From NCBI RefSeq assembly GCF_001294535.1, contig NZ_LGIC01000018.1, positions 1 through 54,672 on the forward strand: a stretch of 54,672 bases of DNA. The letters are read 5' to 3'. Shown here piece after piece: positions 34,472-47,559 of the stretch. The translations under genes were made by a program, and so were the position numbers. Positions within the stretch are counted from its first letter, which is position 1. Every line of letters starts with the position of its first letter. The notes below the pieces were generated by a model, which saw only the letters and a list, made by a program, of their open reading frames with translations, made no database searches and was not told the DNA's origin. This DNA comes from Cypionkella psychrotolerans (GTDB lineage: Bacteria; Pseudomonadota; Alphaproteobacteria; Rhodobacterales; Rhodobacteraceae).

Positions 34472-34653
34472 TCAGATCCCTCATGCGCTGCGCGCGTATG
34501 AGGCGACGCTAAGGTGTTGAAATCCGTCCTTCAAGCGGCGCTTTAGACCCCGTTTGCGACCTCATGTCACATTCGCGTCAAATGCCCCCTTGCAAGGCAA
34601 ACCCAAGCGCGGCACCACTTTGGCGCAACCCCGAACACCGCAAAGGAACCACC

Positions 34654-36162
34654 ATGACCAGCCGCCCGAATATCCTGATTGTCATGGTGGATCAGTTGAC
34701 CGGAACCCTGTTTGACGATGGCCCCGCCGCCTTCCTGCACGCCCCCAATCTGCGCCGCCTCGCCGATCATTCGGTGCGCTTCGCCAATGCCTATACCGCC
34801 TCGCCGCTCTGCGCGCCTGCGCGTGCCGCCTTCATGTCCGGTGCCCTGCCCCGCCGCACCCGCGTCTACGACAATGCCGCCGAATTCGCCTCGGATATTC
34901 CCACCTACGCCCACCATCTGCGCCGCGCAGGCTATTACACCTGCTTGTCAGGTAAAATGCACTTCGTCGGCCCCGACCAGATGCACGGGTTTGAGGAACG
35001 CCTGACCACCGACATCTACCCCGCCGATTTCGGCTGGACACCCGACTACCGCAAACCCGGTGAGCGGATCGACTGGTGGTATCACAATCTGGGCTCGGTC
35101 ACGGGCGCAGGTGTGGCCGAGATCACCAACCAACTCGAATACGATGATGACGTCTGCCACCAAGCGGTGCAGAAGATCTACGACCTCTCCCGCGGCCTCG
35201 ATCCCCGTCCATGGTGCCTGACCGCCAGCTTCACCCACCCGCACGACCCCTTCGTCGCCCGCAAGAAATACTGGGATCTTTACAACGACGCACCTGAATT
35301 GGAACCGCCAGAACCACGCGCCTACGAAGACATGGACCCGCATTCGCAACGCCTGATGGACGCCTGCGATTGGCGGGGCCTCGAAGTAACGCCAGACCAC
35401 ATCCGCCGCGCCCGCCAAGGCTATTTCGCCAATATCTCCTACGTCGATGCCAAAATCGGTGAGATTTTTGAGGCCCTTGAAGCCGCCCGCCAAGAAGCCA
35501 TTGTGATCTTCGTCTCCGACCATGGCGAGATGCTGGGCCGCAAAGGCCTGTGGTTCAAAATGAACTTCTTCGAAGGCGCCTCCCGCGTCCCCCTGATGAT
35601 ATCCGCCCCCGGCCTTGAGCCCAAACGCATCGACACGGCGGTATCGACCATCGACCTGACGCCAACCCTTTGCGATCTGGCAGGGATTTCAATGGAGGAA
35701 GTCATGCCCTGGACCGACGGCGAAAGCCTGCTGCCTCTGGCCAAAGGCACCCCCCGCACCACCCCCGTGGCGATGGAATACGCCGCCGAAGGCAGCATCA
35801 CCCCCATGGTCGCGCTGCGTCTGGGCGCATGGAAATACATCCACTGCCCCGCTGACCCCGATCAGCTTTTCGATCTCGCATCGGACCCAGAAGAAAACCT
35901 CAATCTGGCAGCCGACCCCCGCGCTGCCGAAGTCCTCGCCCATTTCCAAACCCTCACGCAAGACCGCTGGGACATTCCCGCCTATGACGCCGAAGTCCGC
36001 CAGAGCCAAGCCCGCCGCTGGGTGGTCTACGAGGCCCTGCGCAACGGGGCCTATTACCCCTGGGATCACCAACCCCTGCGTGCAGCATCCGAGCGGTATA
36101 TGCGCAACCACATGGATCTGAACTTGCTGGAAGACAACAAACGCTTCCCGCGCGGGGAGTAA
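34654..36162 (+). CDS. betC: Choline-sulfatase BetC
   Basis: A 502-residue cytoplasmic arylsulfatase-type enzyme that splits choline-O-sulfate into choline and sulfate. ATG 34654 has AAAGGAA 6 bases upstream. NILIVMVDQLTGTLF holds the metal Asp (D13); SPLCAPARAAFMSG is the sulfatase signature with C53 (C-x-P-x-R) to become formylglycine. GKMHFVGPDQMHGFEERLTT, GWTPDYRKPGERIDWWYHNL and RRWVVYEALRNGAYYPWDHQ match BetC of Sinorhizobium over the full length, as I recall it. A maturase (FGE or anSME) must be elsewhere. It is convergent with the GMC oxidoreductase. Confidence 0.95.
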   Translation: MTSRPNILIVMVDQLTGTLFDDGPAAFLHAPNLRRLADHSVRFANAYTASPLCAPARAAFMSGALPRRTRVYDNAAEFASDIPTYAHHLRRAGYYTCLSGKMHFVGPDQMHGFEERLTTDIYPADFGWTPDYRKPGERIDWWYHNLGSVTGAGVAEITNQLEYDDDVCHQAVQKIYDLSRGLDPRPWCLTASFTHPHDPFVARKKYWDLYNDAPELEPPEPRAYEDMDPHSQRLMDACDWRGLEVTPDHIRRARQGYFANISYVDAKIGEIFEALEAARQEAIVIFVSDHGEMLGRKGLWFKMNFFEGASRVPLMISAPGLEPKRIDTAVSTIDLTPTLCDLAGISMEEVMPWTDGESLLPLAKGTPRTTPVAMEYAAEGSITPMVALRLGAWKYIHCPADPDQLFDLASDPEENLNLAADPRAAEVLAHFQTLTQDRWDIPAYDAEVRQSQARRWVVYEALRNGAYYPWDHQPLRAASERYMRNHMDLNLLEDNKRFPRGE

Positions 36163-36419: not shown

Positions 36420-38033
36420 TCAGCGCGCGTCGGCCAAGACCCGCTCCGCGCCCTTCCAGCCCATCAGCATGGCGGGCGCGTTGGTGTTGCCTGCGATCAG
36501 GTTCGGGAAGGCGCTGGCATCAATCACCCGCAGGCCTTGCACGCCATGCACCTTCAACCCTGCATCCACTACCGACATCGCCGCATCGCGCCCCATCCGC
36601 GCGGTGCAACTGGGGTGATAGACGGTGCCAGAGCGTTGGCGGAAATCGGCGATCAGATCTTCATCGCTTTGCACAGCGGGGCCGGGGCGCAGTTCTTCAG
36701 CAATCAGGCTCGCCAAAGCAGGCTGCGCCGCGATATGGCGCAGGTATTTCACCGCCGCCAGCATCTCGGCCACATCGTGATCGGTTGAAAACGCGTTGGC
36801 GGTGATCACCGGATGTGCCAAGGGATCGGCTGAGTTGATATAGATACGCCCGCGCGAGGTCGGGCGGCAGTTCGAAAGCCCGATCGACAGGCCGGGAAAT
36901 GGGTCTGGCGTCAGCAAGGGACGTTCCCCGGCCTTCGGCAACAACGTCGAGAACGCCTGCAAATACAACTGCATATTCGGCCGGTCCAAATCGGCACTGG
37001 TCTTGAAAAACCCGCCCGCGTGGTTAATCGACTTCGCCAGCGGCCCGCCCCGGGTCAGGAAATACTGCGCGCCGACGAACAGCTTACCCCACCACGGCCG
37101 CAGCAAATCGTTGTAGGTCGCGACTTTCATCCGCCATGTGTAGTTGATGCCCTGATGGTCGCTCAGATGGTCGCCGACATTCGGATTGTCGAGCAATACC
37201 GGAATATTCAGCCCCGCCAGCAACGCCCCCGGCCCCACGCCTGACAGTTGCAACAACTGCGGCGAGTTGATCGCCCCCCCGGCCAAAATCACCTCGGCAT
37301 TGCAGCGCAGCGCGCAGCGCACGCCTTCGCGCAGATAGTCCACCCCCACCGCACGCTTGCCTTCAAACAGCACCCGCGTCACCTGTGCGTTTGTGATCAC
37401 CTGCAAGTTTGACCGCTTCATCGCAGGCCGCAAAAACGCCCGCGCCGCCGAATTGCGCCGAGCATTCTTGATCGTCATTTGATAGGTGCCGGCACCTTCC
37501 TGCTCGGCGCCGTTGAAATCGCGGTTATAGGCCAGCCCCGCCTGCCCGCAGGCCTTGATGTAATCGTCAACCAGCCAATGCAGCCCCTTGCGGTTTTCCG
37601 AGATAAACAACGGCCCGCCCTTGCCACGCCAATCATCCCCGCCTGCCTCGGTATCCTCCATCGCCTTATAGGCGCTCAGACATTCGTCCCAGCCCCAGCC
37701 CGGATTCTCTGCCCCCCATTCGGCGTAATCGTCCTTATGGCCGCGAATATAGACCATCGCGTTGATGCTCGATGACCCCCCCAGCAGTTTCCCCCGAGGC
37801 CAGTGATCGCGCTGCCCGTTCAGTCCCGGATCAGGCTCGGTCTGATACATCCAGTTCACCGCCAGATCGTAGAACAACTTGCCGTATCCCAACGGCAGTT
37901 GCACAAAAAACCGCCGATCGGTGCCGCCAGCTTCCAGCACGGTGACTTTGTGTTTCCCCGATGCCGTCAAACGCTCGGCCAGCACCGAGCCTGCCGAGCC
38001 TGAGCCCACAATGATGTAATCCGTGTCCTGCAT
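36420..38033 (-). CDS. GMC family oxidoreductase, choline dehydrogenase-like
   Basis: A 537-residue FAD enzyme. The ADP-binding motif [17 protein letters not shown] comes first, then [21 protein letters not shown] (GMC signature 1), [21 protein letters not shown] (signature 2) and the active-site [12 protein letters not shown] His, ending with [23 protein letters not shown] 38033 has AAGGGGCCGG upstream. This pattern covers choline dehydrogenase BetA and related alcohol dehydrogenases. The adjacent betC makes choline a natural substrate, but identity with true BetA looks only moderate by eye, so I do not assign the symbol. Confidence 0.85.
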
Positions 38034-38199
38034 ATCCGGCCCCTTCGCGCCACACCGGGGGGTGGGCCTTGCGTTTGTAACGGGGCAATGACGCGGCCCC
38101 TTGCCAAGATACGACAAAATATGTCGGTATTTCTAAACGCCCCGCTCTTGCATCCCACAACTCTTGCATCCCAGCACCCCCGCCGCCATATTCAGCCTG

Positions 38200-39003: not shown

Positions 39004-39798
39004 TTACTTGCCCTTCCACACCGGATCGCGTTTTTCCACGAAGGCGCGCGCGCCCTCCAACTGATCCTCGGACGAATAGAGCTTGTCCACCGTCGGCAGC
39101 AGCCGCTTTGACACCCGGTTCAGCGCGTCTTGGAAGCGCATATTCTCGGCCTCGCGCACCACTTCCTTGATCGCGGCATAGACCAGCGGCGGTCCAGATT
39201 CCAACAGCCGCGCCAGATCCCAAGCCTTCGGCAGCAGATCCGCGGATGAGGTGATTTCCTTCACAATCCCCCAGCGATGCGCTTCCTCGGCATCAAACCA
39301 ACGCCCGGTCAGCAGCAAATCCATCGCGACGTGATAGGGGATGCGCTTGGGCAGCTTGATGCTGGCGGCATCGGCCACAGTGCCCGAGCGAATTTCCGGC
39401 AAGGCAAAGGTCGCGTTGGCCGAACACAGGATCAGGTCAGCCGACAGCGCCAGTTCCAAACCGCCACCGCAGCAAATCCCGTTCACCGCCGCGATCACCG
39501 GCTTGTTCAGGTTCGGCAATTCCTGCAAGCCGCCAAAGCCGCCCACGCCGTAATCGCCATCCACCGCGTCGCCCTCTGCGGCAGCCTTCAAATCCCAACC
39601 GGGGCAAAAGAATTTCTCCCCCGCCGCGCGCAGAATACATACCCTTAAAGAGTCATCGTCGCGGAAATCACGGAACACCAACCCCATCACCCGGCTGGTT
39701 TTCAGGCTGATCGCATTGGCTTTCGGGCTGTCCAGCGTGACCTCCAGAATGGCCCCCTCGCGCCGGGTCTTGATCGGGCCTTCGGTTCGCATTTCCAT
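39004..39798 (-). CDS. caiD: Carnitinyl-CoA dehydratase-type enoyl-CoA hydratase (CaiD)
   Basis: A 264-residue crotonase-fold enzyme. CaiD interconverts crotonobetainyl-CoA and carnitinyl-CoA. GEKFFCPGWDLKAAAEGDA, GDYGVGGFGGLQEL, NKPVIAAVNGICCGGGLELAL and EKRDPVWKGK closely follow the E. coli CaiD sequence as I remember it. The two catalytic Glu residues of the crotonase fold are at E115 (GGGLELAL) and E135 (FALPEIRSG). A TTG at 39804 is an alternative start; ATG 39798 has AAGGA 10 bases upstream. It is last in the carnitine operon. Confidence 0.88.
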   Translation of the reverse strand: MEMRTEGPIKTRREGAILEVTLDSPKANAISLKTSRVMGLVFRDFRDDDSLRVCILRAAGEKFFCPGWDLKAAAEGDAVDGDYGVGGFGGLQELPNLNKPVIAAVNGICCGGGLELALSADLILCSANATFALPEIRSGTVADAASIKLPKRIPYHVAMDLLLTGRWFDAEEAHRWGIVKEITSSADLLPKAWDLARLLESGPPLVYAAIKEVVREAENMRFQDALNRVSKRLLPTVDKLYSSEDQLEGARAFVEKRDPVWKGK

Positions 39799-39800
39799 CT

Positions 39801-41789
39801 TCAAGCCATCCTTACCAATGCATCCACCGCAACCGCCCCTTCGGGCCGCACGAGGATCGGGTTAATCTCAATTTCTTCCAAACGCGCATCGGCCAGCATC
39901 AGATCGCCCAAGGCTACGGCAATCTCGGCCACCGCCTGCATGTCAGCCTTGGTGCGCCCCCGGTAGCCATCCAGCAGCGGCCACAGCCGCAAGCCACGCA
40001 TTGCCTCCAGCACCTGTGGCACGCTCACGGGCAGGATCAACGTCACCGTATCGGCCAGCACTTCTGCCGTGACCCCGCCCATGCCCAAGGTCAAACTGAC
40101 GCCATAAATCGGATCACGCCGCAGCCCCAGCAGGATTTCCCCTACCGCGCCCGTCACCATCTCCTCGGCCAGATAGCCCGTGGCCCCCGGCATCTCGGCC
40201 TGCCCTTCCAGCGAAGACAGCCCCAAGCGCACCGCCCCCGCTTCGGTCTTATGCGCAAACCCCAGCCCCTTTAAAGCATAGGGCGCGGTCAACCCCGCCG
40301 CCCCCGCAACCACCTCGGCCAACGTCCCCGAAACCGCCCGTGGCACCGCGACGCCCGCCTGCGCCAGCAAAGCTTTCCCCTCGGCCTCCGACAACATCCG
40401 GCTGTCGCGCGGCGGCAGCGCCTTGGCAGGCCGCCACCCCGAAACGCCCGGAGCCACCTGCGCCGCCTTCACCGCAGCCAGTGCCGTCTCCAGCCCCATC
40501 AGCGTCACAACGCCTTGATCCATCAAGGCAATCGCTTGCGCCTCGTCGAAATTCTCGGGCATCGAAGCCACAGGCAAAGCAATCTTGCCGCTGGTTTTCT
40601 GCGCCGACACAATAGCCTCCAAGGCAGGCTGATAGCCCGCCGGATCGCAGCGGTCATTCCTCGGCGGGTCGATGATATAGAGGCCCGCGTCGTAAGCCTC
40701 TAGCATCGCGGTAAAAACTTCGGTAGTTTTCGGCCCGTCACCCCAGATAAACGTGTGATAATCCAGCGGGTTGGAGATCGTCGGGATTTCGCCCAGCACC
40801 TTGAACAACCGGTCATGCGTCGCCTGCGGCACGGGCGGGAAATCAATGCCATAAGGTGCCGCCAAATCCGCCACCAAGCCAGCCTCACCGCCCGAGCACG
40901 ACAGGCTGCAAATCCGTGAACCAATCTGCGGCCCATGCACATGGAAAATCTTCAAAGTCTCAATCAGTTCCGAAGGCGTATTCACCTCGGCCACGCCGAT
41001 CTGGCGCAGAAACGCCGACGACGCCGCTCCACCCCCCGCCAAGGATGCGGTATGCGAGGCCGCCGCCGTCCGGCTCAACTCCGTCTTGCCGGACTTAATA
41101 CAGACAACCCCCTTGCCCCTCGCCCGCGCACGTTCCGCCAAAGCGGCAAAGGCCACCGCATCGTCAATGCCCTCGATATACATCCCCAAGGCGGTCACGC
41201 GCGGATCGTCCAACAACGCGCCCGCCAAATCGGCCAAACCCACCACCGCCGCATTGCCCAGACATGCCACATAAGCCACCGGCAAAGCCCGCTTCTGCAT
41301 ACCGAGATTGATCACGATGTTCGAGGATTGGCTGACCAAAGCCACTCCGGTCTGCACCGGAATCCCGCCGTGCTGATCCGGCCAAAGCAGCGCGCCGTCG
41401 AGGTAATTGATCACCCCATAGCAGTTCGGCCCCAAAATCGGCATATCGCCAGCCGCCGCGATCAACCGCGCCTGCAACTCCGGCTCGCCAGCCTCGGTCC
41501 AGCCAGAGGCAAAGCAAATCGCCCCGCCCGCCCCCATCGCCGCCAGTTCCGCCACCACTTCAATCGTCGCAAACCTGTTGACCCCGATAAACGTCGCATC
41601 CGGCGCTGCGGGCAAATCGGCCAGCGAGGCATAGGCCCTCAGCCCGCCAATCTCGGCCTTGGTCGGATGCACCGGCCAAATATCCCCGGCAAAGCCCATC
41701 TTGCGGCATTGCTCGATCACGTTCAGCGCCCAACCTGCGCCCAGCACGGCAATGCTGCGGGGTCGCAGCAGGCGGTCAAGATTGGCCAT
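39801..41789 (-). CDS. NDP-forming acyl-CoA ligase (acetate-CoA ligase family)
   Basis: A 662-residue fused alpha-beta ligase of the ADP-forming acetyl-CoA synthetase group, which makes acyl-CoA with ATP giving ADP and phosphate. The CoA-binding domain starts LLRPRSIAVLGAGWALNVIE; GPNCYGVINY, a TGVALVSQSSNIVIN block, and the phosphohistidine loop AAASHTASLAG (H246) follow. The ATP-grasp part ends EEIEINPILVRPEGAVAVDAL. In this operon it is the obvious candidate for charging carnitine, crotonobetaine or gamma-butyrobetaine with CoA, instead of the AMP-forming CaiC. The substrate is inference. Confidence 0.85.
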   Translation of the reverse strand: MANLDRLLRPRSIAVLGAGWALNVIEQCRKMGFAGDIWPVHPTKAEIGGLRAYASLADLPAAPDATFIGVNRFATIEVVAELAAMGAGGAICFASGWTEAGEPELQARLIAAAGDMPILGPNCYGVINYLDGALLWPDQHGGIPVQTGVALVSQSSNIVINLGMQKRALPVAYVACLGNAAVVGLADLAGALLDDPRVTALGMYIEGIDDAVAFAALAERARARGKGVVCIKSGKTELSRTAAASHTASLAGGGAASSAFLRQIGVAEVNTPSELIETLKIFHVHGPQIGSRICSLSCSGGEAGLVADLAAPYGIDFPPVPQATHDRLFKVLGEIPTISNPLDYHTFIWGDGPKTTEVFTAMLEAYDAGLYIIDPPRNDRCDPAGYQPALEAIVSAQKTSGKIALPVASMPENFDEAQAIALMDQGVVTLMGLETALAAVKAAQVAPGVSGWRPAKALPPRDSRMLSEAEGKALLAQAGVAVPRAVSGTLAEVVAGAAGLTAPYALKGLGFAHKTEAGAVRLGLSSLEGQAEMPGATGYLAEEMVTGAVGEILLGLRRDPIYGVSLTLGMGGVTAEVLADTVTLILPVSVPQVLEAMRGLRLWPLLDGYRGRTKADMQAVAEIAVALGDLMLADARLEEIEINPILVRPEGAVAVDALVRMA

Positions 41790-41792
41790 TCA

Positions 41793-42095
41793 CTATCCTT
41801 CGGTCTTACCAGCGCGGTCGATGTGGCCCAGATCCCGCTCTGGCCACACCCGATCCCGCACCATCTGTTTCAGCACTTTCACATCCGGGAAACCGCCGCG
41901 CTCTTTGCGGTCCCAGATCACCTCACCGTCCAGCGTGATCTGAAACAGCCCGCCCGTCGCCGGGATCAGCGTGACAGAGGCGATGTCCTGCCCGAAGGTA
42001 GACAGCAGTTCCTGCGCCATCCAAGCCGTGCGCAAAAGCCAGTTGCATTGCGTGCAATAGCTCAAGGTGATCACCGGCCGCTTGATATCGCTCAT
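41793..42095 (-). CDS. SelT/SelW/SelH (Rdx) family protein, Cys form
   Basis: A 100-residue thioredoxin-like protein. VITLSYCTQCNWLLRTAWMA holds the CxxC redox pair, coded TGC in both positions rather than with selenocysteine. TGGLFQITLDGEVIWDRKERGGFPDVKVLKQ is the full Rdx signature. Such proteins are thought to be thiol reductants of unknown partners. It is embedded between the acyl-CoA dehydrogenase and the CoA ligase with gaps of 3 and 15 bases, so it is part of the operon. Confidence 0.9.
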   Translation of the reverse strand: MSDIKRPVITLSYCTQCNWLLRTAWMAQELLSTFGQDIASVTLIPATGGLFQITLDGEVIWDRKERGGFPDVKVLKQMVRDRVWPERDLGHIDRAGKTEG

Positions 42096-42110
42096 AAATC
42101 TGGCCTTTCG

Positions 42111-43274
42111 TTACGCGCCAAAGGGCCGCAACAATTCACGGCTGATGATGTGGCGCTGGATTTCCGAGGTGCCTTCCCAAATACGCTCCACGCGCGCGTC
42201 GCGCCAGATGCGTTCCAGCGGCAACTCGTCCATCAGGCCCATACCACCATGAATCTGGATCGCCTCATCGGCGATCATCGCCAGCACTTCGCTGGCCTTC
42301 AGTTTCGCCATCGACATATCGGCCTCGGTCACCGAACCCTGATCGTATTTCCAAGCCGCCTCGCGCGTCAGCAATTCCGCCGCTTTCAACTCCATCGCCA
42401 TATCGGCAAGCTTGAACGAAACGCCTTGGAATTTGCCGATCTGCTGGCCGAACTGCTTACGCTCTGCCGCATAGGAAATCGCATGGCCCAACGCACGTTC
42501 CGCACGGCCCAAGCAGGTCGAGGCCACTTGCAGTCGGGTTGCACCCAGCCATTTCCCCGCCACTTCAAAGCCCTTATGGACTTCACCGAGGATCTGGCTG
42601 GACGGCAAACGGCAGTCATCAAACTCCAAAATCATGTTGTTGTAGCCGCGATGGCTGACGTTGCGGTAGCCCTCGCGCACGGTGAATCCCGGCGTGCCTT
42701 TATCGACCAGAAACGCGGTGATCAGCTTTTTCTTGCCGCGCGGCGTGTCTTCCTCGCCCGTCGCTACCCAGACAATCGCGAAATCCGCGACGTCAGCATG
42801 GCTGATGAAATGCTTGGTGCCGTTCAGCACATAGTCGCCGCCATCGGCGCGCGCGAAGGCCTTCATGCTGCGCAAATCTGAGCCCGAGCCGGGTTCCGTC
42901 ATCGCCTGACAGTCGTGCTTTTCGGCGCGGATGCAAGGGAACAGATATTTCTCGCGCTGCTCTGGCGTGCACGCCAGAAGGATGTTTGAAGGGCGCGCCA
43001 CACAGTTCCAGTGCAAAGCATAGTTCGCCTTGCCCAACTCTTTTTCATACAAAAGCCACGTCAGGGTATCGAGGCCAGCCCCGCCGACATCCTCCGGCAT
43101 GTTGGCCGCATAAAGCCCCGCCTCGACGGCTTTTTTGGAGATTTCCTTCATCAGATCATGCCGCAAAACCCCGGTGCGCTCCACCTCGGCCTCATGCGGG
43201 AACAACTCGTTCTCCACAAAGGCGCGGGTGGTGTCGATAATCATCTGCTGTTCTTCAGACAGGCCGAAATTCAT
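42111..43274 (-). CDS. Acyl-CoA dehydrogenase, likely gamma-butyrobetainyl-CoA type
   Basis: A 387-residue FAD enzyme. MNFGLSEEQQMIIDTTRAFV opens the N-terminal helices; DCQAMTEPGSGSDLRSMKAF and FISHADVADFAIVWVATG form the FAD/substrate loops; GRAERALGHAISYAAERKQFG and AIQIHGGMGLMDELPLERIW close it. The likely catalytic base is E367 in IWEGTSEIQRH. Its place beside CaiD suggests oxidation of gamma-butyrobetainyl-CoA to crotonobetainyl-CoA (CaiA-like, but perhaps in the forward catabolic direction). An ETF must act elsewhere. Confidence 0.9.
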   Translation of the reverse strand: MNFGLSEEQQMIIDTTRAFVENELFPHEAEVERTGVLRHDLMKEISKKAVEAGLYAANMPEDVGGAGLDTLTWLLYEKELGKANYALHWNCVARPSNILLACTPEQREKYLFPCIRAEKHDCQAMTEPGSGSDLRSMKAFARADGGDYVLNGTKHFISHADVADFAIVWVATGEEDTPRGKKKLITAFLVDKGTPGFTVREGYRNVSHRGYNNMILEFDDCRLPSSQILGEVHKGFEVAGKWLGATRLQVASTCLGRAERALGHAISYAAERKQFGQQIGKFQGVSFKLADMAMELKAAELLTREAAWKYDQGSVTEADMSMAKLKASEVLAMIADEAIQIHGGMGLMDELPLERIWRDARVERIWEGTSEIQRHIISRELLRPFGA

Positions 43275-43283
43275 CTTATTTCC

Positions 43284-44036
43284 TTACGGATCAACGTTGT
43301 AGGTCATGCCATCGACCGCCAGCGCTTGGCCTGAAACCATGCGCGCGCCGTCAGAGGCCAAATAAAGCGCCATCGCCGCCACATCTTCGGGGTCGGTCAG
43401 CCGTTTCAAAGCGGTGCCAGAAGCATAGCCTTGGCGCACCGCATCGGGCGTCATGCCCTTGACCGCAGCCTCGGCCTCAATCACCCGGTCAATGCGCGGG
43501 CCATTCACCGAACCGGGGCAGATCGCATTGGCGCGGATGCCATGCGGACCCAATTCCATCGCCACGGTTTTCATCAAGCCGATGACGCCCCATTTCGCCG
43601 CCACATAGGGCGCGCGGAATGGGTTGCCATAAAGCCCAGCAGTCGAGGACATGAAGATCATCACGCCCTTGCCGGCAGGTTTCATCAGTCTAGCGGCATA
43701 TTTCGCCGCCAGCATCGCACCATCGAGATTGACGGCAAGACACTGATGCCACGCCGCCAAATCCATATCTTCAATCGCCGCCGTCGGCCCCTTGATCCCG
43801 GCATTGGCGCAAAGCACATCCAGCCCGCCCCATTCCGCTGCGATCTGCTCGAACAGCGCCTGCATCCCCGGCTCAAGACTGGCATCGCAGACCGAGCCGC
43901 GAATGCCCGGCGGCAATGCGGCCACCATGGCTGCGTCCACATCCGTCACCCAGACGCGATAGCCCGCCCCGGCAAAGGCTTTCGCCATCACCAGACCAAT
44001 GCCATTCGCGCCTGCGGTGATCAGAACGGTTTTCAT
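43284..44036 (-). CDS. Short-chain dehydrogenase/reductase
   Basis: A 250-residue NAD(P)-dependent SDR. KTVLITAGANGIGLVMAKAF has the T-G-x-x-x-G-x-G-type cofactor loop (here T-A-G-A-N-G-I-G); LCANAGIKGP is the NNAG-like strand; the catalytic set is MSSTAGLYG and APYVAAKWG (Ser, Tyr, Lys). ATG 44036 overlaps the upstream stop by four bases. In a carnitine operon it could reduce or oxidise 3-hydroxybutyrate/acetoacetate made from dehydrocarnitine; that is inference. A D-carnitine role is also possible. Confidence 0.88.
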   Translation of the reverse strand: MKTVLITAGANGIGLVMAKAFAGAGYRVWVTDVDAAMVAALPPGIRGSVCDASLEPGMQALFEQIAAEWGGLDVLCANAGIKGPTAAIEDMDLAAWHQCLAVNLDGAMLAAKYAARLMKPAGKGVMIFMSSTAGLYGNPFRAPYVAAKWGVIGLMKTVAMELGPHGIRANAICPGSVNGPRIDRVIEAEAAVKGMTPDAVRQGYASGTALKRLTDPEDVAAMALYLASDGARMVSGQALAVDGMTYNVDP

Positions 44037-45499
44037 TTCTTCTGCCCCACAGCCCGACCTGCACCTTCCGGCAATGGCAGCCCGGCTTGCGCCTCGGCAA
44101 TCGACTTCAACTTCGCCCAAACCTCAGCCGAGGCAGGCGCCGATTTGCCCGAAGCCATATTCACGTGCAGGCACAACTGCTCAATCGTGGCGACACATTC
44201 CTCGCCCTTCATGATCCGCACGAAACTACGGAACCGCTTCTCGTCCGCCGAAATAATCTGCAACGTACCCGTCAGCTTGTCGCCAAGCTTGGCCTCGCCC
44301 AGATGCCGGATATGGGTTTCTGCCGAGTAGAACGAGTTCCCCGCCGCCACATAGTCCATCCCAGCCCCGATCAGCCGCAGGAAGGCATCGACGGTTTCCG
44401 AGTTGGCGAAGTAGTAACGGCTCTCGGTCATATGGCCATTGTAGTCGATCCATCCCGGCAACACCTGCATCTGCGCCATGACCAGCGGCGCATCCTTCGG
44501 GGCGCTGTCGATTTCCGCATGGAACGCCACCGCGCGGGCTGCGTCATGTTCGCGCAGAACCTTGCCCGCGCCCCAGTTGCGATCCTTCAACGCGCGCAGG
44601 AAGCCGATCAGGTTGCTGTCGCGAATCCGCTCCAACTCGCGGATCGAGTGCATCCCCGATTGCGCATCGGACTGGCCCGCGATCAGGTCAACCAACGCGT
44701 CATTGAACTCGGGAACGTCGGTCAGCTTGGTCCAAGGGGCGGTCAGATACGGCCCGAACTGCGCCATGAAATGCTTCATGCCCGCCTCGCCACCCGCGAC
44801 GCGATAGGTCTCAAACAGCCCCATCTGGCCCCAGCGCAGACCAAAGCCCATGCGGATCGACTCGTCGATTTCTTCCGTCGTAGCCACCCCATCCTTCACC
44901 AGCCACAACGCCTCGCGCCACACCGCTTCCAGGAAACGGTCGGCGATATGGGCGTCGATTTCCTTTTTGATGTGCAGCGGGAACATGCCGATCTCTTTTA
45001 GGATCAGCTTGGCATTCTCGATCACTGCAGGGTCAGATTTCGGCGACGGCACCACTTCGGCCAGCGGCAGCAGGTAAACCGGGTTGAACGGATGGGCGAC
45101 GAAAATCGTCGCCGGATTGGCGGCATTTTCCTGCAACTCGGATGGTTTGAAGCCAGATGTCGAAGACCCGATCGGCGTACCCAATTCCGCCGATTGTTGG
45201 ATCTGTGCAAACACCCGATGCTTCAGATCCAGCCGCTCTGACACCGATTCCTGAATGTAATGCGCGCCTTCCACGGCTTCGGTGATGGTCTGCGCGAAGG
45301 ACAGCACACCCTCCTTCGGCATCGGAATGTCACTCAGCGCCGGAAGCGACGCCCGTGCATTCGCCATCACTTCGCTGATCTTGCGCTCTGCCTGCGGATC
45401 GGGATCGAACACCGATACATTCCAGCCGTTGAGCAAAAACCGAGCCGCCCAGCCGCCGCCAATAACCCCACCACCAATGATCGCTGCTTTTTTTGTCAT
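44033..45499 (-). CDS. Bifunctional L-carnitine 3-dehydrogenase / betainyl-CoA thioesterase
   Basis: A 488-residue fusion. Residues 1-320 are a 3-hydroxyacyl-CoA-dehydrogenase-type NAD enzyme: AAIIGGGVIGGGWAARFLLN, SSTSGFKPSELQ, FVAHPFNPVYLLPLAEVV. This branch oxidises L-carnitine to 3-dehydrocarnitine. Residues about 330-488 form a hotdog thioesterase: MQVLPGWIDYNGHMTESRYY with the Asp/His hotdog site, then FYSAETHIRHLGEAKLGD. The fusion matches characterised carnitine dehydrogenase-thioesterase proteins, whose second domain hydrolyses betainyl-CoA from the next step. ATG 45499 has AGAGAG upstream. The neighbouring BKACE gene completes the route. Confidence 0.92.
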   Translation of the reverse strand: MTKKAAIIGGGVIGGGWAARFLLNGWNVSVFDPDPQAERKISEVMANARASLPALSDIPMPKEGVLSFAQTITEAVEGAHYIQESVSERLDLKHRVFAQIQQSAELGTPIGSSTSGFKPSELQENAANPATIFVAHPFNPVYLLPLAEVVPSPKSDPAVIENAKLILKEIGMFPLHIKKEIDAHIADRFLEAVWREALWLVKDGVATTEEIDESIRMGFGLRWGQMGLFETYRVAGGEAGMKHFMAQFGPYLTAPWTKLTDVPEFNDALVDLIAGQSDAQSGMHSIRELERIRDSNLIGFLRALKDRNWGAGKVLREHDAARAVAFHAEIDSAPKDAPLVMAQMQVLPGWIDYNGHMTESRYYFANSETVDAFLRLIGAGMDYVAAGNSFYSAETHIRHLGEAKLGDKLTGTLQIISADEKRFRSFVRIMKGEECVATIEQLCLHVNMASGKSAPASAEVWAKLKSIAEAQAGLPLPEGAGRAVGQKK

Positions 45500-45556
45500 G
45501 TTATCTCTCTATTCGCACTGGTTTGTTTGGCCGCAACAAGACGGCGGGCCACTTCT

Positions 45557-45590
45557 CCCTCTCCCACTTAGGGAGAGGGCCGGGGTGAGG
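45557..45590. repeat. Widespread CCCTCTCCC hairpin repeat, intercistronic
   Basis: CCCTCTCCC-ACTTA-GGGAGAGGG (45557-45579) is a perfect 9-bp hairpin, followed by CCGGGGTGAGG. This word family is common as an intergenic repeat in many Proteobacteria. It lies inside the carnitine operon, between the BKACE stop and the dehydrogenase start, where it could stabilise the mRNA end or lower downstream expression. Confidence 0.7.
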
Positions 45591-45593
45591 GTC

Positions 45594-46508
45594 TTACTTC
45601 GGCAACGGCGCGCGCTTCTCCAGCTTCAGTTTCGCCCGCACTTCAGCCGGTGTGATCACCCGCGCGCCAAGGTTCGAGATGATCGTCACCGCCCGCTCCA
45701 CCAGTTGCGCGTTGGTGGCGAGCACGCCCTTATCCAGCCACAGGTTATCCTCCAACCCGACGCGCACGTTGCCGCCCGCCAAGACAGAGGCCGCGACATA
45801 GGGCATCTGGTTGCGGCCAATCGCAAAGGCGCTCCAATGCCAATCAGCGGGGACATTGTTGACCATCGCAAGGAAGGTGTTCAGATCATCCGGCGCGCCC
45901 CACGGCACGCCCATGCACAGCTGCACCAAGGTCGGCGCCGGGATCACGCCTTCGCGCGCAAGCTCTTTCGCCAGCCAGAGATGCCCGGTGTCAAACGCCT
46001 CAATCTCAATCCGCACGCCCGCCGCCGTCATCCGCTTGGCCATATCCCGCAACATGCCGGGGGTGTTGACCATCACATAATCGGCCTCGTTGAAGTTCAT
46101 CGTGCCGCAGTCGAGCGTGCAAATCTCGGGCCGACATTCCACCACATGCGCCACCCGCGCCGTCGCCCCGATCATGTCGGAATGACCCGCCATTTGGTTC
46201 ATCTTCTCGGTGCCATCAAACAGCAAATCGCCGCCCATCCCCGCCGTCAGGTTCAGCACCACATCGGTGCCGGAATCGCGGATACGCTCCGTCACTTCAC
46301 GATAAAGCGCCAAATCACGGCTAGGCTTGCCGGTTTCGGGATCGCGCACATGGCAATGCACCACAGCCGCCCCCGCCTTCGCCGCATCAATCGCCGATTT
46401 CGCGATTTGCTCAGGCGAGCGCGGCACATGCGGGCTGCGGTCCTGCGTGCCGCCCGATCCGGTGATGGCGGCGGTGATGAAAACTTCGCGGTTCATGGCC
46501 AAGGGCAT
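45594..46508 (-). CDS. BKACE family beta-keto acid cleavage enzyme (dehydrocarnitine cleavage)
   Basis: A 304-residue zinc enzyme (DUF849/BKACE). It cleaves a beta-keto acid with acetyl-CoA; the carnitine type gives acetoacetate and betainyl-CoA from dehydrocarnitine. EVFITAAITGSGGTQDRSP opens the TIM barrel; VVHCHVRDPETGK gives zinc ligands H51 and H53; GGNVRVGLEDNLWL is the conserved late loop with the third ligand region. GGAGG lies before ATG 46508. It is first in the carnitine operon and next to the dehydrogenase-thioesterase, the known partner arrangement. Confidence 0.92.
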   Translation of the reverse strand: MPLAMNREVFITAAITGSGGTQDRSPHVPRSPEQIAKSAIDAAKAGAAVVHCHVRDPETGKPSRDLALYREVTERIRDSGTDVVLNLTAGMGGDLLFDGTEKMNQMAGHSDMIGATARVAHVVECRPEICTLDCGTMNFNEADYVMVNTPGMLRDMAKRMTAAGVRIEIEAFDTGHLWLAKELAREGVIPAPTLVQLCMGVPWGAPDDLNTFLAMVNNVPADWHWSAFAIGRNQMPYVAASVLAGGNVRVGLEDNLWLDKGVLATNAQLVERAVTIISNLGARVITPAEVRAKLKLEKRAPLPK

Positions 46509-46581
46509 GGGAATCCTCCAATTCGATTGCGGGCAGCATAGCGGGCTTGCAACGCCACGCTTGACGATTTACGCAATAAGC
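46509..46581. promoter_or_regulatory. Divergent promoter region, carnitine operon / regulator
   Basis: Only 73 bases separate the BKACE start from the regulator start. It must contain both promoters and probably the regulator's operator. I see a loose TTGC...GCAA dyad (46527-46552) and a TTGACG at 46561, but no confident -35/-10 pair. Confidence 0.5.
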
Positions 46582-47559
46582 ATGGCAAAATCCGCAAAAA
46601 TCGACACATCCATCTTCGCGCCGCGTCCCGAGCCGCTGACCTTGGCCCTGCTGGTCCTGCCGCAATCCTCCATCCTAGAGGTTGCCTCCACCCTGGACCC
46701 GCTCCGCTCAGCCAACCGCCATCTGGGGCATGACGCCTACCGCTGGCGCGTCGTCTCCCCCGATGGCCGCCCGGTCCCGCTGACCTGCGGCATTGAACTG
46801 CCCTCCAACGGCCCGCTGTCCGCCGCCGAAGGTGCCGACGCCCTCATCGTCATCGCCGGGTTCCAACAATCCCACTCCGCCACGCAACCCTTGATCCGCG
46901 ACCTCTCCCGCGCCGCGCCGCGCTTTGCCGCCATCGGCGGCATCGACGCAGGCGCATGGGTGCTTGCCCGCGCGGGCCTGCTGAACGGTTACAAAGCCAC
47001 CGTCCACTGGGAAGACCTTGAGGATTTCGCCGCCACCCACCCCCAAATCGACGTCGCCCCCGACCGCTTTGTCATCGACCGCAACCGCTTCACCGCAGGT
47101 GGTGCCGCCCCCGCCTGCGATCTGATGCTCCACCTGATCCGCGCCCGCCACGGCCCGGTCTTGGCCCTGCAAGTCGCGGCCTCTTTCATCACCACCGCCC
47201 GCGACGGCCACGAGCCGCAAATGACCAGCGCAAAGCCCGACCCCCGCCTAGACCCGCGTGTATCCGCCGCCATCGCGAGGATGGAGGCCAGCCTCGACGC
47301 CCCCGAAACCACAGCACAAACTGCCGCCGCTATCGGCCTGTCGTCGCGCCGCTTAGAGCAAATATTCCAAGAAAACCTAGGGTTGCCCCCCGCCACCTAC
47401 GCGCTCACCCTGCGCCTCGCCGCCGCAAGACGCATGATCACCGACACCCGACACCCGCTCGCCGAAGTCGCCCTACGGTGCGGCTTTTCCTCGGCCTCAA
47501 GCCTTGCCCGCGCCTTCCGCGCTCAGCTCGGCCTCACCCCCAGCAGCCTGCGCCGCTGA
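46582..47559 (+). CDS. GlxA/AraC family transcription regulator (CdhR-like)
   Basis: A 325-residue regulator. Residues about 17-190 are the DJ-1/PfpI-like amidase-type sensor (LTLALLVLPQSSILEVASTL, AAIGGIDAGAWVLARAGLL, VHWEDLEDF), and the AraC DNA-binding domain with two helix-turn-helix units ends the protein (TAAAIGLSSRRLEQIFQENLGLPP, VALRCGFSSASSLARAFRAQ). CdhR and GbdR of Pseudomonas, which sense carnitine and betaine, are of this type. It is divergent from the carnitine operon, so it likely activates it. Its 3' end overlaps the mgtC gene by 63 bases on the opposite strand. Confidence 0.92.
   Translation: MAKSAKIDTSIFAPRPEPLTLALLVLPQSSILEVASTLDPLRSANRHLGHDAYRWRVVSPDGRPVPLTCGIELPSNGPLSAAEGADALIVIAGFQQSHSATQPLIRDLSRAAPRFAAIGGIDAGAWVLARAGLLNGYKATVHWEDLEDFAATHPQIDVAPDRFVIDRNRFTAGGAAPACDLMLHLIRARHGPVLALQVAASFITTARDGHEPQMTSAKPDPRLDPRVSAAIARMEASLDAPETTAQTAAAIGLSSRRLEQIFQENLGLPPATYALTLRLAAARRMITDTRHPLAEVALRCGFSSASSLARAFRAQLGLTPSSLRR

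Follow-up and report, generated by a model that had tools for sequence, protein, structure and literature searches.

A predicted gamma-butyrobetaine and carnitine catabolic operon in Cypionkella psychrotolerans and its conservation in relatives

Gene content and layout of the operon

The DNA analysed here (the window) is a stretch of 54,672 nucleotides from contig NZ_LGIC01000018.1 of Cypionkella psychrotolerans, a member of the Rhodobacteraceae. It carries a predicted carnitine/gamma-butyrobetaine operon of seven packed genes on the minus strand (39004-46508), with a gene for a GlxA/AraC-type, GbdR-like regulator lying divergently on the plus strand (46582-47559; DJ-1_PfpI and HTH_18 domains). 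In the direction of transcription, the seven genes encode a beta-keto acid cleavage enzyme (BKACE; 45594-46508; PF05853, 338.6 bits), predicted to cleave 3-dehydrocarnitine with acetyl-CoA; a fusion protein of carnitine 3-dehydrogenase and a 4HBT thioesterase (44033-45499; 3HCDH_N, 3HCDH and 4HBT_2 domains), hereafter the fusion; a short-chain dehydrogenase/reductase (SDR) family oxidoreductase (43284-44036; PF13561, adh_short_C2); an acyl-CoA dehydrogenase, predicted to act on gamma-butyrobetainyl-CoA (42111-43274; PF00441/PF02770/PF02771, Acyl-CoA_dh N/M/C); a small redox protein of the Rdx family (SelT/SelW/SelH-like; 41793-42095); a single-chain ADP(NDP)-forming acyl-CoA ligase, predicted to be a BcoAB-like gamma-butyrobetaine:CoA ligase (39801-41789; CoA_binding_2, Succ_CoA_lig and ATP-grasp_5 domains); and a CaiD-type enoyl-CoA hydratase, predicted to hydrate crotonobetainyl-CoA (39004-39804; PF00378, 194 bits). 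An earlier note, made from the letters of the DNA, had named these eight genes and their domains, and the coordinates, Pfam and NCBIfam confirmed every one. We put the probability at about 87% that this is a betaine-catabolic operon with a GlxA-type regulator, encoding a Sinorhizobium meliloti-type pathway that converts gamma-butyrobetaine by way of carnitine into glycine betaine. The reactions in C. psychrotolerans, the inducers and the roles of the SDR and Rdx proteins are predicted from gene content, gene order, homology and conserved synteny.

The spacing of the genes is tight throughout. The CaiD and ligase genes overlap by 4 bp, the ligase and Rdx genes are 3 bp apart, and the gaps between Rdx and the acyl-CoA dehydrogenase and between the latter and the SDR are 15 bp and 9 bp. 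The SDR and fusion genes overlap by 4 bp (ATGA), and the widest gap, of 94 bp, separates the fusion from BKACE. The most likely start of the SDR gene is ATG 44036, which overlaps the stop of the fusion gene, and not 44120; that of the regulator is ATG 46582 rather than 46327, and CaiD may start at TTG 39804 or ATG 39798. BKACE and the regulator start 73 bp apart and run in opposite directions, and the region between their starts (46509-46581) is a presumed operator/promoter by position; a promoter scan of this region gave no sigma-70-like match.

The predicted pathway and its two modules

The fusion passes the NCBIfam model for carnitine 3-dehydrogenase (NF005716) with 747 bits against a cut-off of 592, and the best solved structure for BKACE was 3c6c (E 5.4e-83). 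The regulator scored 197 bits against the NCBIfam GbdR model, below the cut-off of 480. Some match to the fusion protein was found in 294 of 295 genomes of the family, the weak ones among them probably being general hydroxyacyl-CoA dehydrogenases. In the CoA half, the top NCBIfam model for the CaiD-type protein was crotonobetainyl-CoA hydratase (302 bits, cut-off 500), and the acyl-CoA dehydrogenase reached 185 bits against the CaiA model (cut-off 540). Because both scores lie below the cut-offs, the two proteins are named CaiD-like and CaiA-like by resemblance only.

In the pathway that we propose, the ligase would convert gamma-butyrobetaine, ATP and CoA into gamma-butyrobetainyl-CoA and ADP, and might also form crotonobetainyl-CoA or carnitinyl-CoA. 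The acyl-CoA dehydrogenase would then yield crotonobetainyl-CoA, which the CaiD-type protein would hydrate to L-carnitinyl-CoA, and L-carnitine could be released from this ester by the thioesterase domain or by the ligase working in reverse. The dehydrogenase domain of the fusion would oxidize L-carnitine to 3-dehydrocarnitine, BKACE would convert the latter and acetyl-CoA into acetoacetate and betainyl-CoA, and the thioesterase domain would finally turn betainyl-CoA into glycine betaine. The SDR may perhaps act on acetoacetate/3-hydroxybutyrate or on D-carnitine.

Two further genes beside the operon have a bearing on glycine betaine: a choline sulfatase gene (34564-36162; PF12411 C-terminal domain) and a gene for a choline-dehydrogenase-like GMC oxidoreductase (36420-38117), together a second possible source of this compound. 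Their position next to the operon, and the general standing of glycine betaine as an osmoprotectant, would suit a pathway that chiefly makes L-carnitine or glycine betaine from gamma-butyrobetaine for osmoprotection and not for growth. However, BKACE is understood to cleave the carbon chain and to free acetoacetate, which is a catabolic step, and regulators of the GlxA/GbdR type are generally tied to catabolism, so we hold an osmoprotective purpose to be very improbable.

Comparison with known systems

The closest counterpart of the operon was found in S. meliloti Ak57 (locus L031, on a record of 3.7 Mb labelled pSymB), in which a divergent regulator, BKACE, the fusion, the acyl-CoA dehydrogenase, the ligase (as two open reading frames, ORFs) and CaiD follow one another in the core order of the window. 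The identities between the two, by tblastn, were 42% for the regulator, which sits at the same place, 71% for BKACE, 54% for the fusion, 66% for the acyl-CoA dehydrogenase, which likewise lies between the fusion and the ligase, 53% for the ligase and 77% for CaiD. The two clusters thus share the BKACE and carnitine 3-dehydrogenase/thioesterase pair (PF05853; NF005716 and 4HBT_2), the acyl-CoA dehydrogenase, ADP-forming ligase and CaiD-type hydratase in one operon and in one order, and the divergent GlxA/AraC regulator. They differ in that the window operon has SDR and Rdx genes added inside it, in the 42-77% identities, and in the form of the ligase. The window ligase is a single 662-aa chain. 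In S. meliloti, where the ligase is unannotated, the DNA instead has two ORFs (480 and 228 aa) that overlap each other and correspond to the CoA-binding and ATP-grasp portions of the window ligase, at 53% and 45% identity. From their position and this two-part structure, we infer that the two ORFs are the published BcoAB.

In S. meliloti, Bazire et al. are said to have described in 2019 (J Bacteriol 201:e00772-18) a route of seven steps, carried out by five enzymes, from gamma-butyrobetaine to glycine betaine. PMC8364193 reports the use of S. meliloti BcoAB, on a plasmid from A. Perret, as a gamma-butyrobetaine:CoA ligase with ATP and CoA. According to PMC12482172, which cites Bazire et al. 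2019, S. meliloti SM2011_c01638 converts carnitine into 3-dehydrocarnitine and betainyl-CoA into glycine betaine. The earlier note had taken this exact combination of genes to be undescribed, which did not hold: S. meliloti has the same core order, BcoAB has already been used in print and the pathway was published in 2019. The core gene combination is therefore not new.

PMC12482172 also describes how Pseudomonas aeruginosa turns carnitine into glycine betaine through 3-dehydrocarnitine and betainyl-CoA with a carnitine dehydrogenase and BKACE. The window shares this route, but its thioesterase is fused to the dehydrogenase and its gamma-butyrobetaine CoA module stands in the same operon. To the Escherichia coli caiTABCDE/fixABCX system of anaerobic carnitine reduction, the likeness, by resemblance, lies in a CaiD-type hydratase and an acyl-CoA dehydrogenase that work on CoA esters of betaines. 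Unlike that system, the seven window genes contain no Pfam domain of a CaiB CoA transferase or of an AMP-forming CaiC, and a cai-type system was ruled out by gene content (Pfam and NCBIfam). The link to BKACE and carnitine dehydrogenase suggests that the window operon is oxidative, unlike that of E. coli. The earlier note's proposal that an NDP-forming ligase stands in place of the AMP-forming CaiC is supported.

Conservation of the two modules in relatives

Searches with an alignment of five ligase sequences (A1) found at least 587 relatives in 591 candidate stretches, from which the best 80 were kept as named loci; 14 of these end early at contig ends. Of the 71 loci with room for it, 69 had an acyl-CoA dehydrogenase gene immediately upstream of the ligase, and CaiD came immediately downstream in all 76 with room. 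BKACE and the fusion were both inside the fetched stretch in 57 of the 80. In the family as a whole, 188 of 295 genomes had a ligase match at E <=1e-100. Neorhizobium has the same gene order as S. meliloti, and in Thioclava the same five enzymes are encoded in a single run, where BKACE and the fusion follow CaiD. Since the order is kept in many genera, the arrangement is not a matter of chance.

The two modules also occur side by side or alone. At locus L098, there are two adjacent units, one of dehydrogenase, ligase and CaiD and the other of BKACE and fusion, each with its own GlxA-type regulator. Leisingera (L036) has BKACE and the fusion without the CoA module in 17 kb, and an acetoacetate-CoA ligase gene is present. 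In Ruegeria pomeroyi (L032), the CoA module stands without BKACE and the fusion in 20 kb, and the organism makes CdhABC proteins for carnitine, as stated in PMC12478193, which indicates that the modules are apart in this species. These arrangements show the operon to be a union of two modules, and the label 'composite' given to it in the earlier note is apt. The synteny of the NDP-forming ligase with BKACE, on which that note had made its reading depend, was conserved, and its central claim, that the CoA branch feeds the dehydrogenase-BKACE-thioesterase route within one unit, is very probably right, given this synteny and the same order in S. meliloti. The S. meliloti-type route thus appears to be encoded, with its synteny kept, in many Rhodobacteraceae, for which aerobic use of these betaines is predicted.

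The specificity of the CoA module needs closer weighing, because the acyl-CoA dehydrogenase, the ligase and CaiD might serve another onium acid, either one like dimethylsulfoniopropionate (DMSP) or a longer betaine, and merely adjoin the carnitine genes. By sequence similarity, the top-scoring solved structure for the ligase was 7cm9, 'DMSP lyase' (E 3.9e-64), a likeness that fits a substrate with an onium group and leaves the choice between gamma-butyrobetaine and others undecided. Other points also weigh against the gamma-butyrobetaine assignment: nine of the 80 loci lack one or both carnitine genes nearby although the ligase is flanked on each side by 8 kb or more (eight lack both BKACE and the fusion, while the ninth has BKACE only), the R. 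pomeroyi cluster described above has neither, the E. coli-type equivalog cut-offs for CaiD and CaiA exceed the scores of the window proteins, and the link between the two S. meliloti ORFs and BcoAB comes from their position and two-part structure. Against a separate onium acid stand the matching operon and gene order of S. meliloti, in which BcoAB acts on gamma-butyrobetaine, the linkage of the ligase to BKACE and the fusion in those 57 loci, and the top NCBIfam model of CaiD, crotonobetainyl-CoA hydratase, albeit with a score under its cut-off. We consider another onium acid improbable and retain gamma-butyrobetaine as the predicted substrate.

Two side observations concern the genes of the CoA module. 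In R. pomeroyi, a DJ-1/PfpI gene (L032:11005-11610) is inserted between the ligase and CaiD. In several loci, the identities of the acyl-CoA dehydrogenase and the ligase to their window counterparts do not track each other (81% and 47% in L101, 59% and 66% in L066; also in L087 and others), which suggests that the acyl-CoA dehydrogenase has been exchanged between operons.

The SDR and Rdx genes

The SDR gene is a variable part of the operon: a gene at least 40% identical to it occurs in 26 of the 80 named loci. Its usual place in relatives is between the fusion and the acyl-CoA dehydrogenase, but some have it behind BKACE or between BKACE and the fusion. Of its 218 NCBIfam matches, the 25 that were listed all fell short of their cut-offs, and the best solved structures were a mixture of ketoacyl-ACP reductase and quinuclidinone, borneol and 3-hydroxybutyrate dehydrogenases, for which reason we claim no substrate. 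The window SDR is not the counterpart of an SDR upstream of the S. meliloti regulator, with which it shares 28% identity over part of its length.

The Rdx protein is firmly assigned to its family (PF10262, 106.9 bits against a cut-off of 22.6; NCBIfam SelT/SelW/SelH, 70.6 against 34.2), has a CTQC motif, and has Atu0228 (2fa8) as its closest solved structure. There was no sign of a selenoprotein, the stops seen among the 24 copies in the family lying at the end of the frame. These 24 copies (L147-L170) come from 24 of the 295 family genomes, one match each, including the window's own. The Rdx gene adjoins the acyl-CoA dehydrogenase in 13 of them, and the ligase is visible on the other side in 12; the contig of the thirteenth (L150) has no ligase on that side. 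In one copy, a stretch resembling a thioesterase domain (L151:1097-1486, 33%) lies between Rdx and the ligase. Among the named loci, Rdx was found in six of 80, always between the acyl-CoA dehydrogenase and the ligase, and Hoeflea, of the Rhizobiaceae, has it at the same spot. The other 11 family copies had varied neighbours (ORFs read by eye in about 3.3 kb each).

The rarity of Rdx, set beside its recurrence next to the acyl-CoA dehydrogenase and again in Hoeflea, is the basis for supposing that it might be a working part of the CoA module, for instance by serving the acyl-CoA dehydrogenase or the ligase as a thiol-redox partner or protector. We find this suggestion rather doubtful. Rdx is missing from most of the operons, six genomes carry it but have no ligase match, and on the tree the operon copies do not make up one clade. 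An obligatory role was excluded by a hand count, in which Rdx occurred in 18 of the 188 ligase-bearing genomes and in six of the 107 others. Vertical inheritance as one operon gene was likewise unsupported. The tree, built from 30 short sequences, was poorly resolved, with 17 of its 26 inner branches open; on it, the operon label needed seven changes, where shuffling gave a mean of 9.3 and 37 of 500 shuffles were as low. A literature search on the Rdx family and carnitine found no paper. If true, such a role would give a bacterial protein of the SelT/W/H type a concrete biochemical setting, and the recurrent place of the gene in the operon is testable for a part in the pathway.

One of the 11 copies with other neighbours is in a genome without a ligase match at E 1e-100 (G283, locus L154). 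There, Rdx lies between M3 peptidase-like and choline-dehydrogenase-like genes, counterparts of which flank the window operon, and the locus looks as if it were the window neighbourhood minus the operon.

A structured intergenic element in relatives

In many relatives without Rdx, the acyl-CoA dehydrogenase and ligase genes are separated by some 230-300 bp or more, and this gap holds a conserved element (for example, L042:8794-8945, L090:8787-8951 in reverse, and L175:1436-1612); a few with Rdx have it too (L050, L051, G247). Together with the position of Rdx, this element is a part of the system worth a further look. A scan for a palindrome plus core found it in 39 of the 80 named loci, in 38 of them no more than 400 bp upstream of the ligase, and the 61 distinct copies with both ends measure 138 to 216 bp. 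The window contained no match to the core pattern even when as many as three mismatches were allowed. Rfam at gathering thresholds returned only tRNAs from seven element loci; at a relaxed threshold, the top hit, BjrC68, scored 18 bits against 39 and fell largely outside the element, and a second relaxed scan gave nothing. A literature search for a palindromic intergenic repeat element in Rhodobacterales found no paper.

A structure was predicted from 35 of the 61 copies, picked by hand with most of the longer, more divergent ones left out. In this model, 95.5% of cells were paired and 23 of 37 pairs were changed on both sides; none of 500 shuffles scored as high, although related sequences can beat shuffles even without structure, and every slid control came down to 43-52% paired. 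A second helix shares the 3' arm and excludes the outer helix, with 99.0% of cells paired and seven of nine pairs changed on both sides, part of this pairing being expected from the likeness between the two 5' arms. G-U cells outnumbered the mirror A-C cells by 107 to 8 in the core, third and alternative helices, which tends to favour an RNA from the strand that was modelled; in the outer helix, the counts were 12 and 10. The modelling thus points to a low-copy, RNA-like structured element in Rhodobacteraceae with two mutually exclusive, covarying helices. Among distinct copies in the named loci, 32 lie on the ligase strand and four on the opposite one, and since the orientation differs between lineages, the element is unlikely to be a simple leader for the ligase.

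Matches to the model R1 of this element were found in at least 114 of 149 family genomes and at least 4 of 142 class genomes, these counts being lower bounds owing to stricter filters and about 20 scored candidates per genome. Two of the four class genomes belong to the window's family, one being the window's own genome, and the matches in the other two were weak and partial. The window's genome has four R1 matches, none on the contig of the window. One lies between apparent cobO and cobQ genes and another near a truA-like gene; the remaining two are identical in sequence and lie near contig ends.

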